NCBI GenBank assembly: GCA_021157585.1
Contig: JAGGWH010000173.1
Location: 1 to 35,747 of the forward strand
Direction: 5' to 3'
From: Bacteroidales bacterium
GTDB taxonomy: Bacteria; Bacteroidota; Bacteroidia; Bacteroidales; UBA12170
DNA: 35,747 nucleotides
A program made the translations under genes and the position numbers. The notes below the pieces were generated by a model, which worked only from the letters and a program-made list of their open reading frames with translations, did not search any database and had not been told where the DNA came from. This document shows positions 5,498 through 14,750 of the stretch, piece after piece; position 1 is the first letter of the stretch, and the number at the start of each line of letters is the position of its first letter.

Positions 5498-5878
5498 GCA
5501 ACGAAGATATTAATTTTTATTAATTCTTACATTGATTTATTGGCTGTTATAATAATTACAATATACTGAAACTTAGGACGAACAATATTTTACTCAATAT
5601 CAATATGAAAACCATAAGAAAATCGCCGCCTATTTTAGCGCATAGAAGAAGGAATTAATATATTTTTTTATGGTTATTTAGAATAAATCCCTAATTTAGA
5701 GGATTGAAAAAATATTGTCTAATACTTTTGAGTAGTAAGGCATAACTGTTTAACCACAAAGCAATGAATTTGAACTCAAAATCTCCTTTTTTAATTGTAT
5801 CTTTAGCTATGCTTATAAATATTAGAGCATTTGATTTCAAATATCTTGTTTTCAAATTATCAACATAAAATATTAATT
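5498..5878. other. 381-base AT-rich intergenic region between divergent genes
   Basis: The region separates threonine synthase (-) from the glycosyltransferase unit (+). Close to the thrC start (5502-5509, minus) is TATCTTCG, one base off TAnnTTTG. On the plus strand TACTTTTG (5723-5730) matches the consensus, and TATCTTTA (5798-5805) is one base off. No hairpin, tRNA or riboswitch fold was recognised, and the only ORFs are under 20 codons. Confidence 0.5.
5723..5730 (+). promoter_or_regulatory. Candidate -7 element TACTTTTG for the glycosyltransferase unit
   Basis: An exact TAnnTTTG match on the strand of the four-gene unit that starts at 5879, giving a leader of about 140 bases. A TTG at 5704-5706 could be the upstream element, but its spacing is short. 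Confidence 0.35.
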
Positions 5879-7075
5879 ATGCTTACAATGAAAATTATTT
5901 TTTGGGTCTTTTTGTTTATTATTTTCTACACCTATATCGGATATGGAATTTTATTATACTTATTAGTTTGTATCAAACGGATTCTCAAAAAATCAAAATC
6001 ATCAAATATTGAGGAGAATTACGAACCGGAAGTTACATTATTTGTGGCGGCCTATAACGAAAAAGATTATGCAGAAGAAAAAGTAGCGAACTCATTTTCT
6101 TTAGAATATCCAAAAGAAAAAGTAAAGCAAGTATGGGTTACAGATGGATCTGATGATGGCACTCCCGATATACTAAAAAAATATGCCGACCAAGGTGTTG
6201 AAGTATATCACGAAGATGCTCGAGGTGGAAAAATTGGAGCTATGAATAGGGGAATGTCATTCGTTAAAACACCTATCGTTATTTTTTCAGATGGAAATAC
6301 ATCATTAGGTAAAGAGTCAATCCGAAGAATTGTAAATTTATTTGCAGATCCAAAAGTAGGCTGTGTTTCTGGCGAAAAAAGAATACACCAAAAAGATAAA
6401 GATGCAGCTGCCGGTACCGAAGGAATATACTGGAAATACGAATCAACTTTGAAAAAATGGGATGCAGAATTGTATTCCGTTGTAGGAGCAGCCGGAGAAC
6501 TATTCGCTATCCGTACTGAATTGTTCCAACATGTTGAAAAAGATACTCTTCTTGACGATATGATAATTTCTTTACGTGTCGCTATGAAAGGCTATACAAT
6601 ACAATACGATCCTGAAGCATATGCTATTGAGACTGCCTCAGCAAACGTAAAAGAAGAGTTAAAACGAAAAGTGAGAATTTCGGCAGGCGGTTTCCAATCT
6701 ATCGGTCGCTTATTACCAATATTTAATATTTTTAAGTATGGATGGCTTTCATTTCAGTTTGTTTCTCATCGCGTTTTGCGGTGGACTTTAGCACCACTTG
6801 GTTTACTAATTATACTTATACTAAATGCATTTATTACCGCTAACGAAGGCTTTTTTAATTTCAATAGTATTTTCACTTTCTTTTTCTGGGGACAGATCTT
6901 ATTCTATACTTCGGCCTTATTAGGCTGGTTTCTCGAAAACAAACAAATAAAAGTTAAAGTTCTTTTTGTTCCATATTATTTCTTTATAATGAACTTGTCT
7001 GTTTTTCTAGGACTTAACAGGTATCTAAAAGGTAATCAGTCTGTTAAATGGGAAAGAGCTAAAAGAGGGAGCTAA
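5879..7075 (+). CDS. Membrane-bound family 2 glycosyltransferase
   Basis: A 398-residue processive-type GT2. It has an N-terminal membrane segment (about 5-32), then the GT-A domain: VTLFVAAYNE (52-61), the nucleotide-sugar motif VTDGSDDGT (87-95), GGKIGAMNRG (116-125), the metal-binding DGN (138-140) as DxD equivalent, and LLDDM (224-228) as likely catalytic acid region. QSIGR (273-277) stands where processive enzymes carry QxxRW. Three more membrane helices follow (about 300-318, 330-350, 360-380). This resembles poly-N-acetylglucosamine or hyaluronan synthase-like enzymes, but the sugar cannot be read from the sequence. The ATG at 5879 is preferred to an upstream in-frame TTG at 5831; ATG 5888 is an alternative. 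It heads a tight plus-strand unit, the next gene starting 2 bases after its stop. Confidence 0.85.
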   Translation: MLTMKIIFWVFLFIIFYTYIGYGILLYLLVCIKRILKKSKSSNIEENYEPEVTLFVAAYNEKDYAEEKVANSFSLEYPKEKVKQVWVTDGSDDGTPDILKKYADQGVEVYHEDARGGKIGAMNRGMSFVKTPIVIFSDGNTSLGKESIRRIVNLFADPKVGCVSGEKRIHQKDKDAAAGTEGIYWKYESTLKKWDAELYSVVGAAGELFAIRTELFQHVEKDTLLDDMIISLRVAMKGYTIQYDPEAYAIETASANVKEELKRKVRISAGGFQSIGRLLPIFNIFKYGWLSFQFVSHRVLRWTLAPLGLLIILILNAFITANEGFFNFNSIFTFFFWGQILFYTSALLGWFLENKQIKVKVLFVPYYFFIMNLSVFLGLNRYLKGNQSVKWERAKRGS

Positions 7076-7076
7076 A

Positions 7077-7907
7077 ATGAGCGATATAAAGCAAAAAATA
7101 AAACGATTAATACCTTTTTGGTTAGGAAAAAAAATAAGAGGAACTTACCAAAAAATATTAGGATTAATATATAGAGGCGATACTTACTATTGTCCGTATT
7201 GCAAACATAATTTCAGAAAAATGCTTACCGATGGCGAGCAATTAGAGGTAATAGAAAAATATCAGATTATTGGTAGTGGTTATCGCAAAAACTGTACTTG
7301 TCCCAGATGCTATGCTAAAGATCGTGACAGGCTCATCCATCTATATCTTGAAAAAAAGACAACTGTTTTAACTAAGCCTCATCGTGTTTTACATATTGCA
7401 CCGGAAGCTTGGCTGAAAGAACTTTTTCAATCATTACCTCACATTCATTATACCAACGGAGTTAAAGATGCCGAAAGTATGGGCTATTATTACGATAGAA
7501 GAACACGTGATATAGATATTACCGATTTGGAGATGAAAGATGCTTTTTACGATTTGATTGTTTGTAACCATGTATTAGAGCATATTACTGACGATATTAA
7601 AGCAATGAAAGAAATCTATCGCGTTTTAAAACCGGGAGGATGGGCAATTTTACAAGTCCCCTATTCGGCTATTTTAGAGAATACTTTTGAGGATGAAACT
7701 ATTATAACAAAGGCCGACAGGACAAAATTCTTTGGGCAATTTGATCACGTTAGGATTTACGGAAAAGATTATGTAAATCGCCTTGAATTTGTTGGCTTTA
7801 AGGTAGAGTTATTCAATCCGATTAATGAAACTTGGGGAGAAGAATACATTAAAAAATATGCTCTAAATCCTAAAGAAAATTTGTTTATTGCACATAAACC
7901 AAGCTAA
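7077..7907 (+). CDS. SAM-dependent methyltransferase with N-terminal zinc-ribbon
   Basis: A 276-residue class I methyltransferase. A basic N-terminal helix precedes a Cys cluster, CPYC (39-42) and CPRC (75-78), which with an extra C73 looks like a zinc ribbon. RVLHIAPE (103-110) is motif I, although the usual glycine-rich loop is weak. YDLIVCNHVLEHI (158-170) is the strand-4 motif, and LKPGGWAILQVPY (184-196) is the post-motif typical of Methyltransf_11. The ribbon-plus-methyltransferase form is often found beside glycosyltransferases in surface polysaccharide loci, so a sugar or lipid-linked glycan is a likely substrate; that is inference. It lies 1 base after the GT2 stop and 3 bases before the hybrid kinase, so it is almost certainly co-transcribed. 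Confidence 0.8.
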   Translation: MSDIKQKIKRLIPFWLGKKIRGTYQKILGLIYRGDTYYCPYCKHNFRKMLTDGEQLEVIEKYQIIGSGYRKNCTCPRCYAKDRDRLIHLYLEKKTTVLTKPHRVLHIAPEAWLKELFQSLPHIHYTNGVKDAESMGYYYDRRTRDIDITDLEMKDAFYDLIVCNHVLEHITDDIKAMKEIYRVLKPGGWAILQVPYSAILENTFEDETIITKADRTKFFGQFDHVRIYGKDYVNRLEFVGFKVELFNPINETWGEEYIKKYALNPKENLFIAHKPS

Positions 7908-7910
7908 TAA

Positions 7911-9368
7911 ATGATATTACTTATCAATTTAATGGAAACAGACTCACTATTATTCCTTGGTGAAATCAGCGGATTAGTATTTATAATTATACTTCTAATT
8001 TTATTTTTGATAAATAAGAACAAGAGCAAAAAAATATTTGTAAAAAATCAAATTCTTGAATCCGAAATTAAAGAGCTAAAAAAGGAATTAAACAACAAAA
8101 ATAAATCTTTAGAAGCCGAAATAGCTCTCAAAACAAAAGAGCTGTTAAACGAGATTGAAAACAGAAAAGCTATAGAGACAGAGCGTAAAATTGCACTAAA
8201 GAAAGCTGAAGAAGCAAGCTTTCTAAAAAATGCTTTTTTAGCCAATATGAGCCACGAAATAAGAACCCCATTAAATGGTATAATTGGTTTTTCTCATCTT
8301 CTTCTTAGTGAAGTTGAATATCAAGAAAAACCCGAGTTGGTAGATTTTGCTAAAGGGATTGCTGAGAGCAGCGATCGTTTATTAAACCTAATGGAGCATA
8401 TTATTGATCTTAGTCGTATTGATGCCAATGACTACGAAATTAAAATAAAAACTTTCGAGATAAATGCAGTAGTTAAAGTATGTGTAGAAAAAATTAAAAA
8501 CACTGCTTTTAAAAATGGCTTGATTTTTAAGTACGAGCAAGACTCTATTTATTTAGTAAAGGGCGATACTGCCGCTTTTGAAAAATCTGTGGATTTATTA
8601 CTTGACAATGCCCTTAAATACACTATAGAAGGAAATATCTCTGTAAGTATAAAGGCTGATATCGATAAAAACATTGTTATAGTCTCTATCTCTGATACAG
8701 GAATAGGAATTGATAAGAACTTTTTATCTTCCATTTTTGAAGCTTTCAGACAAGAGAGTACAGGATACAGCAGAATACATCAGGGTGCAGGCTTAGGACT
8801 TCCATTAGCACAAAAATTAATGTTGTTAATGGATGGCGAAATCAAGATTAAATCAGAAAAAGGCAAGGGAACAGAAGTAAGCATAATACTTCCACTTGAT
8901 AATTCTCAAGATCAAACAAGTTTAAAATATGACAAGAAAAAACTTGATAATCAGAAAATAAAAACAAAACCAAATATCTTTATTGTAGAAGACGATAAAA
9001 TGAACCGTATGGTATTTGAAAAGATGCTTTCTAAATATGCAAATGTTAAAATTGCCGTTGATGGGGATGATGCTTTTATACAACTAGAAAAAGCTATACT
9101 CTCCAAATCGACTTTCGATATTATTTTATTAGATATCAATCTACCTAAACCTTGGGATGGGATGCTACTATTAACAGAATTAAAAAAGAAGTGGCCGGAA
9201 TTAAACAAAATTCCTTTTATAGCTCAAACAGCATACGCAATGACCGGCGATAAAGAAAAATTCTTAAAAGCGGGATTCGACGATTATATATCAAAACCCA
9301 TTGATAAAAAAGAACTCTTTACTATCATTGAAAATAATATGCGTAAATTTAGAACATCAAAATTCTAA
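7911..9368 (+). CDS. Hybrid sensor histidine kinase with receiver domain
   Basis: A 485-residue membrane-anchored kinase. It has one transmembrane helix (about 15-35), a long coiled coil (about 40-105), HisKA with MSHEIRTPLNG (113-123, H115), and HATPase_c with N-box DNALKYT (232-238), G1 DTGIGI (262-267) and G2 GAGLGL (292-297). The receiver domain (about 355-478) has acidic pocket EDD (360-362), phospho-acceptor D408 in LLDINLP, and KP near 462-463. All catalytic motifs look intact. No PAS, GAF or periplasmic sensor domain is seen, so the stimulus must come through the membrane helix, the coiled coil or a partner. It is followed after 4 bases by a second hybrid kinase-like gene and preceded by the methyltransferase. 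An ATG at 7932 is an alternative start. Confidence 0.9.
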   Translation: MILLINLMETDSLLFLGEISGLVFIIILLILFLINKNKSKKIFVKNQILESEIKELKKELNNKNKSLEAEIALKTKELLNEIENRKAIETERKIALKKAEEASFLKNAFLANMSHEIRTPLNGIIGFSHLLLSEVEYQEKPELVDFAKGIAESSDRLLNLMEHIIDLSRIDANDYEIKIKTFEINAVVKVCVEKIKNTAFKNGLIFKYEQDSIYLVKGDTAAFEKSVDLLLDNALKYTIEGNISVSIKADIDKNIVIVSISDTGIGIDKNFLSSIFEAFRQESTGYSRIHQGAGLGLPLAQKLMLLMDGEIKIKSEKGKGTEVSIILPLDNSQDQTSLKYDKKKLDNQKIKTKPNIFIVEDDKMNRMVFEKMLSKYANVKIAVDGDDAFIQLEKAILSKSTFDIILLDINLPKPWDGMLLLTELKKKWPELNKIPFIAQTAYAMTGDKEKFLKAGFDDYISKPIDKKELFTIIENNMRKFRTSKF

Positions 9369-9372
9369 AACA

Positions 9373-10590
9373 ATGGAAGATCCGAAAGAAAAAGAATTGA
9401 TTAAATTACAAAAAGAGCTAAGTGATTTAAGAAAGAAATATAATAACGCTTTACTAAACGAGCATAATTTACAAAGCTCTCAAGCAATCTTTTTAAGAAA
9501 TCTTAGTCAGAATATCCGTATTCCTATGAACGGAGTAATGGGAATGCTTGATGTTTTACGCATGACAAAATTAGACGCTGAACAAAAAGATTATGTAAAT
9601 TTAGTTGCCAATTATAGCGATAATCTTTTATCGATAATAAATGATATTCTAGATTATTCCAACTTAATGAACAGCACCTTTCAATTAGAAGCTGATTATT
9701 TTGAGATTAGTAAACTCGCAGACGAAATTAAAGAATTACTTCACTTCAAAGTAAAAGGAAAAGGACTAAACTTTATTATCAAAATAGATGATCAGATTCC
9801 GGAATTCCTCTATGCGGATAAAGGTAGAATTAAACAAGTTTTAATCAATCTTTTAAATAATGCAATTCGTCATACCAAAGAGGGTGAAATAAGATTGAAT
9901 ATTGAACAACTTAATCACAAAGATAAAAATTCTGTCGTAAAGTTCAGCATTGCTGATACCGGATTTGGAATTGAAGAAGGGTTGGTACGTATACTTAAAA
10001 AAGAACTAAATTCCGAAGGTTTAATTACAAAACTTTCATTAAACGGTGTGGGTCTTGGTTTAGCTATTTCCCAATCGCTATTAAAATTAATGGATAGTCA
10101 TCTCTCTTTTGATACGGAGCTTGGTAAAGGTTCAAATTTTTGGTTTACGCTTTCCATTGCAACTCGACATAAAAACCGTTCAGGTGTTTACAACGAAACT
10201 ATTCCAGGTAAACGATCTCTGAAAATCCTTTTGGTAGAAGATAATATGCTCAATCAAAAGTTTGCAAAAGTTACACTTGACAAACAAGGGCACTTTCTTG
10301 ATATTGCAAAAAATGGTAAAGTTGCTATCGAAAAATTCAAAACTGAAACTTACGATCTTATTTTAATGGATATACAAATGCCCATTATGAATGGTATTGA
10401 AGCAACAAAAGAAATCAGAAGAATCGAAAATAAAAAAAGCACAGAGCCTATAAAAATAATTGCAATAACAGCTTTTGCACTTGATAATAACAGAGAAGCA
10501 TGTATAAACGCCGGAATGGATGATTTCTTAGCCAAACCTTTTAAACCTAATCAGTTAATCCGTATGATTAACGAGATTAAGTTTATTTAA
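9373..10590 (+). CDS. Hybrid histidine kinase-like protein lacking the phospho-acceptor His
   Basis: A 405-residue protein with a coiled coil (1-35), a HisKA-like domain, a HATPase-like domain and a receiver. The H-box reads FLRNLSQNIRIPMNG (40-54): Q46 occupies the place of the phosphorylated His in the preceding kinase (MSHEIRTPLNG). N-box NNAIRHT (162-168), G1 DTGFGI (195-200) and G2 GVGLGL (225-230) are kept, but the F-box between G1 and G2 is unrecognisable. The receiver (about 283-402) keeps the acidic pair EDN, D333 in LMDIQMP, and KP (388-389). It has no membrane segment. Autophosphorylation is therefore unlikely. It could act as a pseudokinase partner, or its receiver could accept phosphate from the upstream kinase. 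The ATG at 9373 is chosen over an in-frame TTG at 9301 that lies deep inside the preceding gene. Confidence 0.85.
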   Translation: MEDPKEKELIKLQKELSDLRKKYNNALLNEHNLQSSQAIFLRNLSQNIRIPMNGVMGMLDVLRMTKLDAEQKDYVNLVANYSDNLLSIINDILDYSNLMNSTFQLEADYFEISKLADEIKELLHFKVKGKGLNFIIKIDDQIPEFLYADKGRIKQVLINLLNNAIRHTKEGEIRLNIEQLNHKDKNSVVKFSIADTGFGIEEGLVRILKKELNSEGLITKLSLNGVGLGLAISQSLLKLMDSHLSFDTELGKGSNFWFTLSIATRHKNRSGVYNETIPGKRSLKILLVEDNMLNQKFAKVTLDKQGHFLDIAKNGKVAIEKFKTETYDLILMDIQMPIMNGIEATKEIRRIENKKSTEPIKIIAITAFALDNNREACINAGMDDFLAKPFKPNQLIRMINEIKFI

Positions 10591-12098: not shown

Positions 12099-14750
12099 CT
12101 AGCTAAGGTACTTTTTCATTAATTCAATCAAATCTAACTTTTTGATGGGTTTCGAAATATACTCATCGCAACCCATAGAAAGAGCCATCTCCCTATCGCC
12201 TGAGATAGCAAAAGCGGTTTGGGCAATAATTGGTAAATCGGGATAAACTTCTTTTATACTCTTTGTAGCCTCAAATCCGTTTAATTCGGGCATCTTAATG
12301 TCCATTAAAATAATATCAGGACGCTCTATATTTAGAACCTCACTAACGGCATCATTTCCATTTGTAACTTGCTTAACTCTAATTTTAGTAGGCTTTAAAA
12401 TATACATTAATAGCTCATAATTAGAATACTCATCCTCTGCAATAAGAACATATTTGTCGCTCCAGTCGATAGTTTGCATTATTATATTATTTTTAACTGT
12501 CTTTTCATATCCATTTTTATATTTTCCAATCTTAAAAAAGAAAACAGAACCTTTTCCCTCAACAGATTCAACCCAAAGCTTTCCTCCCAATAAATCAGTC
12601 AAATTATTTGATAAAGACAATCCCAAACCGGCACCACCAAACTTACGTGTAAGCGTTTCCTCCCCTTGCCTGAATATATCAAAAATAATTTCTTGCTTAT
12701 CCTTATTTATGCCAATTCCACTATCTTCAACATAAACTATAACATCGCTTTCTTCTTCAATAATACCAAGTTTAACATATCCATTGGGCGTAAATTTTAT
12801 TGCATTTTTTAATAAATTACTAATAATTTGAGTTATACGAGAGGCATCGCTATCGAGTATAATTTGTTTATTGGGCAATTCATTCTTAAACTCTAATTTA
12901 TCTATTTTATTAAACTTCTTTATTTCTACAGGCATTATTTCTGCAAGCTCTTGAAGAACTTGTACCAAATCAAATTTTGCCTTATAAATTTTTACTTGAT
13001 TAGACTCAATTAAAGATAAATCAAAGATATCCTCAATCAGATTAAGTAAATTTTGTCCGTTATTATTTATTAATCTAACGAATTCGTTTATTTCTGCATC
13101 TAAACCGGGAGTTCCCATTATTAAGTCGGAGAAACCAATTACGGCATTTAATGGAGTACGCAGTTCGTGTGACATTGTAGCTAAAAAAGTAGATTTCAAG
13201 CGATCCGACTCTTCTGCTTTTAATTTAGCTTGAATAATATCTCTGACATAATTCTTCCGCTCAGTAATATCGTAGATAATTCCAAATAACAAAGATTTGG
13301 CTCTCAATTCATCATAATGAATATGTCCAGAAAATTTTACCCACTTCACATTATTTTTAATGTCATACACCCGAATATCAAAATCGTATTCAGCACTATT
13401 TTGAATTGCTTCCATCATTTTTCGTAAAAACAAAAAACGATCTTCAGGATGAATGTATTCTAAAACATCTTTAAATCCTTTATTGTCAAACAATTTAGAA
13501 TCACCAAAGATTTCCTCCAAATTATCTACCCAATTTAAAGTAAGTCTCTCTAAATCCCACTCCCAACTGACAATTCCACCAGCTCTTTGTGCTAAAGCAT
13601 AACGTCTTTCAATTTGTTTTAGATTTTCAATTGCTTTTTTTCTAATTGTAACATCACGACCAATAACTATTATTCGTTTTCGAGAACCATCAGGATTAAA
13701 ACTAGGGATTTTCAGGGTATCTAAAATGATTTCTCCACCATCGGGTAAGGGAATAACCTCATCCCTTCGGATTAAATTTTTAGCATCCCAAGCTTCAAAA
13801 TCAGAATTCATACAAGAAATTAATGCATCCTTATAAAAGCTAGAATAATCAGACAATTCAAGGGTTGTTTTACCGTAATAATTTACCCCTTCAAGTTCAA
13901 ATAACTTTATGTTTGAACTGTTTGCCATCAGCCATCTTCCTTCACCATCTTTAACACAAACTATGTCTGGCGTACCCTCTATCAGCTGAAATAGCAAGTC
14001 CGACTTTTCCTCCATTACAGTCTCAAAAGCTTTTCCTTCGGTAACATCTTCAGCCAAAGCTAAAAACCATTTTACATTACCAGCATTATCTCGTAAAGGA
14101 ATTATCTGCGTCCGTTGCCAATAAAGTTGACCCGATTTTTTCTTGTTATGAAAACTATTATTCCATATCTGACCTTTTAAAATAGTTTCCCACATTTGCT
14201 TATAAAAGTCGTTAGTTTGTTTACCCGACTTTAAAATACGTGTACTATTACCAATAGCTTCATCAAAAGTGTAACCAGTAACCGCTGTAAATTTCTTATT
14301 AACGTATTCTACTTTTCCTGTTATATCTGTGATAACAACTATATTCACAGCATCTTCAAAAGTACTCACATCAAAATTCATTTCATCTGAAATCCCTACT
14401 GAACCTGACAATGCAATAGGTTGACCCTGCTCATTATTCCCTTGCTTCTTGAAAAGAAAAGCAATCTCTGCAGATGATATTTTTTGCCTTATAATTAGGA
14501 AGTTTACATTCTGATAAGAAAGATCAAGATTATTTTTAACCACTTCCTTACTTAATGATTCAAAGACAAATTGCTCGAATTCATGACCAAACTGGTCAAA
14601 TATATTCGTTTCATTGATATCAGAGAAAATCTGTTGAAAGGTAGTATTGAAATCTATATGCAGACCATTTATACTCTCAACATCAGCCTTAAGCTTAGTA
14701 ACAAGACACACAGCCTGTTCAATATTATTGAAAAATAAATTTTGATGCAT
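12099..14750 (-). CDS. Triple-PAS hybrid sensor histidine kinase
   Basis: An 883-residue soluble-looking kinase. Residues 1-125 are an unassigned N-terminal domain. Three PAS/PAC units follow: about 130-245 (NKKFTAVTGYTFDE, then the PAC motif ending AEDVTEGK), about 250-372 (ending IGRDVTIRKK), and about 385-500 (WEWDLERLTLNW, ending YDITERK). HisKA has MSHELRTPLNA with H528. HATPase_c has NLLKNAIKFT (645-654), DSGIGI (676-681) and GGAGLGL (705-711). The receiver (about 765-880) has EDE (772-774), D817 in LMDIKMP and KP (867-868). There is no transmembrane helix, so the PAS units probably sense a cytoplasmic or membrane-permeant signal such as redox state or a small ligand. No cognate DNA-binding regulator is adjacent. 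Confidence 0.92.
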   Translation of the reverse strand: MHQNLFFNNIEQAVCLVTKLKADVESINGLHIDFNTTFQQIFSDINETNIFDQFGHEFEQFVFESLSKEVVKNNLDLSYQNVNFLIIRQKISSAEIAFLFKKQGNNEQGQPIALSGSVGISDEMNFDVSTFEDAVNIVVITDITGKVEYVNKKFTAVTGYTFDEAIGNSTRILKSGKQTNDFYKQMWETILKGQIWNNSFHNKKKSGQLYWQRTQIIPLRDNAGNVKWFLALAEDVTEGKAFETVMEEKSDLLFQLIEGTPDIVCVKDGEGRWLMANSSNIKLFELEGVNYYGKTTLELSDYSSFYKDALISCMNSDFEAWDAKNLIRRDEVIPLPDGGEIILDTLKIPSFNPDGSRKRIIVIGRDVTIRKKAIENLKQIERRYALAQRAGGIVSWEWDLERLTLNWVDNLEEIFGDSKLFDNKGFKDVLEYIHPEDRFLFLRKMMEAIQNSAEYDFDIRVYDIKNNVKWVKFSGHIHYDELRAKSLLFGIIYDITERKNYVRDIIQAKLKAEESDRLKSTFLATMSHELRTPLNAVIGFSDLIMGTPGLDAEINEFVRLINNNGQNLLNLIEDIFDLSLIESNQVKIYKAKFDLVQVLQELAEIMPVEIKKFNKIDKLEFKNELPNKQIILDSDASRITQIISNLLKNAIKFTPNGYVKLGIIEEESDVIVYVEDSGIGINKDKQEIIFDIFRQGEETLTRKFGGAGLGLSLSNNLTDLLGGKLWVESVEGKGSVFFFKIGKYKNGYEKTVKNNIIMQTIDWSDKYVLIAEDEYSNYELLMYILKPTKIRVKQVTNGNDAVSEVLNIERPDIILMDIKMPELNGFEATKSIKEVYPDLPIIAQTAFAISGDREMALSMGCDEYISKPIKKLDLIELMKKYLS

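Follow-up and report, generated by a model that had tools for sequence, protein, structure and literature searches.

What becomes of a hybrid histidine kinase that has lost the histidine on which it would phosphorylate itself, and is the gene for such a protein decaying or kept? The question is raised by a 405-residue protein encoded on contig JAGGWH010000173.1 of a Bacteroidales bacterium (assembly GCA_021157585.1), from which we analyzed a stretch of 35,747 nucleotides (the window). With a probability of roughly 0.7, we propose that this protein is a pseudo-histidine kinase scaffold maintained by selection, with a functional-looking receiver that would be loaded by other phosphodonors and would give its output by contact.

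A hybrid kinase fold without its phospho-acceptor

Pfam assigned HisKA (49 bits), HATPase_c (65 bits) and Response_reg (94 bits) to the 405-residue protein, each above its cut-off, and both these matches and the predicted structure have the domain order of a hybrid kinase. The AlphaFold model shows a DHp-CA-REC fold (predicted local distance difference test score 82, predicted template modeling score 0.57) in which domain placement is uncertain. The nearest solved structures were ShkA, followed by GacS and RetS, including the RetS-GacS heterocomplex; DivL was found further down. NCBIfam names (TorS, BarA, RcsC and others) all scored far below cut-off and were rejected.

The phospho-acceptor position is occupied by Gln46 (NLSQNIRIP), where the adjacent kinase reads NMSHEIRTP. 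An initial annotation of the window had pointed to this Gln and its CAG codon, and both sequence and alignments bear it out. Moreover, the catalytic Glu next to the His is changed to Asn47 and the Thr of HExxRTP to Ile, i.e., Gln46-Asn47 stands in place of a His followed by Glu or Asp. We read the H-boxes of all 38 HisKA domains in the genome and found His in 37, the sole exception being the 405-residue protein. The same annotation had described the F-box as lost and the N-box, G1, G2 and full receiver with D333 as kept, in agreement with our alignments: the N-box reads INLLNNAIRHT, and between G1 and G2 an unrelated sequence replaces the F-box/ATP lid of intact orthologues (LFKAFSQIDSSTTRKYGG). 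The receiver has the residues of a phosphorylatable domain, i.e., an acidic pair (E289, D290), Asp (D333), Thr (T366) and Lys (K388), all of which are invariant.

Gln46 is fixed within the genus

An alignment of close homologues, the check proposed with the initial annotation, placed Gln46 in 7/7 orthologues of the same genus, the 405-residue protein included; it is not strain-specific. With its kinase fold and conserved non-His acceptor site, the protein has the sequence hallmarks of a pseudo-histidine kinase. Three of the six closest orthologues use the codon CAG and three use CAA. Synonymous divergence (dS) between genus orthologues was mostly above 1 and saturated in most comparisons; dN/dS ratios are hence only rough, and we relied on nonsynonymous divergence (dN). 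Within the genus, dN was 0.04–0.13 for the dead DHp, 0.07–0.13 for its own receiver and 0.13–0.30 for the DHp of the neighboring kinase. In most pairs the dead DHp did not exceed its own receiver in dN, and it stayed far below the DHp of the upstream kinase. It is among the slowest-evolving parts of the protein in the genus, its H-box segment is invariant, and every orthologue is an open frame.

The residue was thus maintained in seven species while its codon drifted at saturated dS, which argues against both error and decay. Two codons in seven species led us to reject a sequencing error or a strain-specific mutation, and open frames together with low dN to reject a pseudogene. Judged from these alignments, the dead kinase state is kept by purifying selection within the genus.

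Kinase competence was probably lost once

We assembled 27 orthologues, taken from the locus or from the same clade; several source assemblies are incomplete. Ten are intact kinases with HExxRTP, F-box and GTGLGL, whereas 17 are dead. At the phospho-acceptor site the dead proteins have Gln (seven), Tyr (four), Glu (two), Asn (one) or a His without the catalytic Glu (three, with H-boxes SHHIRVP, THSIKIP and SHNLRIS). The F-box/ATP lid is missing in 17/17 dead and kept in 10/10 intact orthologues, and some of the dead ones (G060, G143) have an additionally broken G1 or G2. Their receivers are intact without exception (17/17). At 55–65% receiver identity, DHp and CA identities were 37% and 29%, respectively, for dead orthologues compared with 72% and 51% for intact ones; the receiver is therefore the part that stays constant throughout the order. 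As far as the alignments tell, the receiver is constrained and the kinase core relaxed across the dead orthologues, and within the genus the DHp is tightly constrained again. The fixed Gln with its changing codons, the DHp dN below that of the neighbor and the intact receivers together uphold the initial annotation, which had favored a selected pseudokinase over simple decay.

In the gene tree, dead orthologues form one side of a branch (support 99/97), and on a tree of the glycosyltransferase, methyltransferase and upstream kinase a single change suffices for the loss; the trees are unrooted and have long branches at G060 and G023/G139. From both trees we conclude that kinase competence was probably lost once, in an old event, with Gln as the state reached in this genus. 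On the aligned sequences, the site after this older loss became Gln, Tyr, Asn or Glu, or stayed His without the catalytic Glu, and Gln is genus-specific. A topology test of single versus multiple origins of Tyr gave an approximately unbiased p value (p-AU) of 0.109. A scan of named genomes returned mostly unrelated hybrid kinases; L106 alone belongs to the locus, and L107, L109, L110 and L113 were rejected, as they have no methyltransferase or glycosyltransferase neighbors.

The pseudokinase gene closes a glycosyltransferase operon

The pseudokinase gene is the last in an operon-like run of glycosyltransferase, methyltransferase, hybrid kinase and pseudokinase with gaps of 1–4 bp (Table 1). 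This gene order is retained across the taxonomic order in nearly all loci that we read.

Table 1. Features of the pseudokinase gene and its operon in the window.
Feature	Position	Strand	Details	Basis
Pseudo-histidine kinase with receiver	9373..10590	+	405 aa; ATG at 9373, stop codon ends at 10590; N-terminus MEDPKEKE; coiled coil/DHp 4–99, CA 108–264, REC 283–400	
Degenerate H-box NLSQNIRIP	9499..9525	+	residues 43–51; Gln46 codon CAG at 9508–9510	sequence, alignments
N-box region	9835..9876	+	QVLINLLNNAIRHT, residues 155–168, kept	alignments
G1 to G2	9955..10062	+	DTGFG to GVGLGL; F-box/ATP lid lost in between	alignments
Receiver domain	10219..10572	+	E289-D290, D333, T366, K388 retained	Pfam, alignments
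Upstream hybrid histidine kinase	7911..9368	+	485 aa; has its His here, replaced by Arg in three sister species; 4 bp gap to the pseudokinase gene	
Methyltransferase	7077..7907	+	conserved cluster	
Family 2 glycosyltransferase	5831..7075	+	PgaC/IcaA-like, below curated NCBIfam cut-off; conserved cluster	

Outside the genus, further polysaccharide genes often flank the cluster. There, a β-helix-like, probably secreted protein often lies between glycosyltransferase and methyltransferase (L037, 3348–5027; L038, 10600–12528); it is absent in the window. In some families, a second protein of about 660 residues with the same methyltransferase domain adjoins the glycosyltransferase (L045, 1197–3191; L047, 1413–3392; L061, 1246–3240). 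Downstream, the window encodes a PAS-rich hybrid kinase (12099–14750, minus strand) that is reduced in relatives, i.e., to a 126-residue receiver stub in G005 and similarly in G004 (L032, 3672–4052; L035, 2799–3185). Nothing is found at this position in G001, G006 and G010.

The upstream kinase is not a general phosphate donor

The initial annotation suggested that the upstream kinase feeds the receiver. This may hold in this strain but does not hold genus-wide. In G001, G005 and G006 the His of the upstream kinase is replaced by Arg (MSREIRTP; codons AGA, CGC), while the full set of ATPase motifs is intact (L031, 8919–10382; L032, 7299–8807; L033, 6421–7905). The partner protein has Gln in these species, so both operon kinases are devoid of a phospho-acceptor His and, on their sequences, neither should be able to autophosphorylate conventionally. 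Feeding by the upstream kinase can therefore not be general in the genus. Two further members, G003 and G009, have the operon including the upstream kinase without the pseudokinase gene. In G354 the situation is reversed, with Ser in the upstream kinase (VSSEIRTP; L043, 6541–8031) and an intact pseudokinase orthologue. G093 and G196 have an extra tandem copy of the upstream kinase with Gln in an otherwise canonical H-box (MSQEIRTP; L040, 2015–4642; L041, 7204–9831) beside the intact copy.

A plausible alternative donor is a standalone HPt protein of 113 residues (L104, 2070–2411) that we found in this genome and in 8/8 genus relatives tested. Both receivers are intact at the double-dead loci of G001, G005 and G006. 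It is conceivable, if somewhat doubtful, that the kinase pair has been converted there into a double-receiver module that senses phosphate, is supplied from elsewhere, e.g., by the HPt protein, and controls the polysaccharide synthase by contact.

How the pseudokinase might work

As a scaffold, the 405-residue protein would not autophosphorylate. Its DHp and CA parts would serve dimerization and docking, either in a homodimer or in a heterodimer with the co-encoded hybrid kinase. The receiver would be loaded and unloaded by the neighboring kinase where this has its His, by the genus-wide single-domain HPt protein, or by both. Depending on its phosphorylation state, it would then alter the partner kinase or a complex that synthesizes exopolysaccharide, presumably by contact because the protein has no output domain that binds DNA. 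Its place in a glycosyltransferase operon points to secreted polysaccharide as the process under control.

Several points weigh against this proposal. We infer where the phosphate comes from, which partner is bound, which type of dimer forms and what the output is. The protein may still bind ATP, since N, G1 and G2 persist in the genus. In the wider dead group, the kinase core is free to diverge, and a scaffold role may hence be strong only inside the genus. Finally, the gene must be dispensable in the two genus members that lack it.

A special case of the scaffold proposal, which we put forward tentatively, is an obligate heterodimer similar to FasBC or RetS/GacS, in which the live kinase encoded at 7911 gives His and ATPase and the dead subunit docking and a second receiver. 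The two genes lie side by side throughout the order, with 4 bp between them in the window, the neighbor is live in most species with a dead orthologue, the reverse arrangement in G354 would fit as well, and precedents exist (PMC12675982, PMC5992135). However, neither subunit has a His in G001, G005 and G006, both proteins are intact in nine species, and the kinase cores of the pair are less than 30% identical.

We consider it unlikely that the protein is a receiver-only response regulator, loaded by HPt and acting alone, with an inert spacer for a kinase half. Receiver constraint with relaxed DHp and CA across families would agree with this, as would the conserved HPt protein, but an inert spacer should not have a DHp among the slowest parts in the genus, nor an invariant H-box segment. 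Even less probable is a residual or moonlighting kinase that uses ATP on its N, G1 and G2 boxes to phosphorylate another residue or the His of a partner in trans. The boxes are retained in the genus and dead orthologues with Tyr exist, but all 17 dead orthologues are without ATP lid/F-box, G060 and G143 have a defective G1 or G2, and DivL, which has Tyr, shows no kinase activity (PMC4211667). Simple decay, i.e., a recent loss of function on the way to a pseudogene, is the least credible explanation: three catalytic features have gone together, G003 and G009 miss the gene and kinase cores diverge fast in the wider dead group, but the frame is open in every orthologue, Gln was fixed through synonymous codon changes, the DHp has lower dN than its active neighbor, and one old loss was followed by long retention.

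Comparison with known systems

By analogy, the protein resembles DivL, RetS and FasC in logic but differs in carrying its own receiver; nothing points to orthology with DivL, RetS/GacS or FasB/FasC. DivL of Caulobacter, a pseudo-histidine kinase with Tyr, uses the kinase fold without catalysis (PMC4211667), and Tyr also occupies the acceptor site in four dead orthologues of the 405-residue protein. DivL, however, keeps the H, N, G1, F and G2 boxes save for the His and has PAS domains and no receiver, whereas the 405-residue protein has Gln, no F-box and an attached receiver. By these features it is not a member of the DivL family.

In Pseudomonas RetS/GacS (PMC5992135; PDB 6dk7, 7n0e), two kinases interact directly, and their folds are the closest solved ones after ShkA. 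Exopolysaccharide is also part of the name of RetS. RetS is a membrane sensor and, to our knowledge, is not co-encoded with GacS, unlike the adjacent pair described here. FasB and FasC of Streptococcus (PMC12675982) are products of adjacent kinase genes that pair, one of them, FasC, being a proposed pseudokinase. In that pair the phosphorylated His comes from FasC, whose CA domain is not required, whereas the 405-residue protein is without both His and ATP lid. In the RcsC/RcsD phosphorelay, a hybrid kinase works with a kinase-like phosphorelay protein. The RcsD model matched the 405-residue protein at 75 bits, far below cut-off, and RcsD carries HPt where our protein carries a receiver. Domain order and receiver are shared with canonical HisKA-HATPase_c-REC kinases (ShkA, BarA, TorS), which differ in having the acceptor His, catalytic Glu and F-box. 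The ChrS pseudokinase is a laboratory-evolved parallel (PMC9491836). For a natural Gln at the phospho-acceptor site, we found nothing relevant in the open-access literature.

Only few pseudo-histidine kinases have been studied so far, with DivL as the usual example. Here, related species carry a single locus in forms that range from intact through partly dead to fully dead, with an old loss that has Gln, Tyr, Asn, Glu and His as end states and with separate losses in the upstream kinase, to Arg, to Ser and, in a duplicate, to Gln. This range makes the transition from kinase to scaffold testable with natural orthologues.
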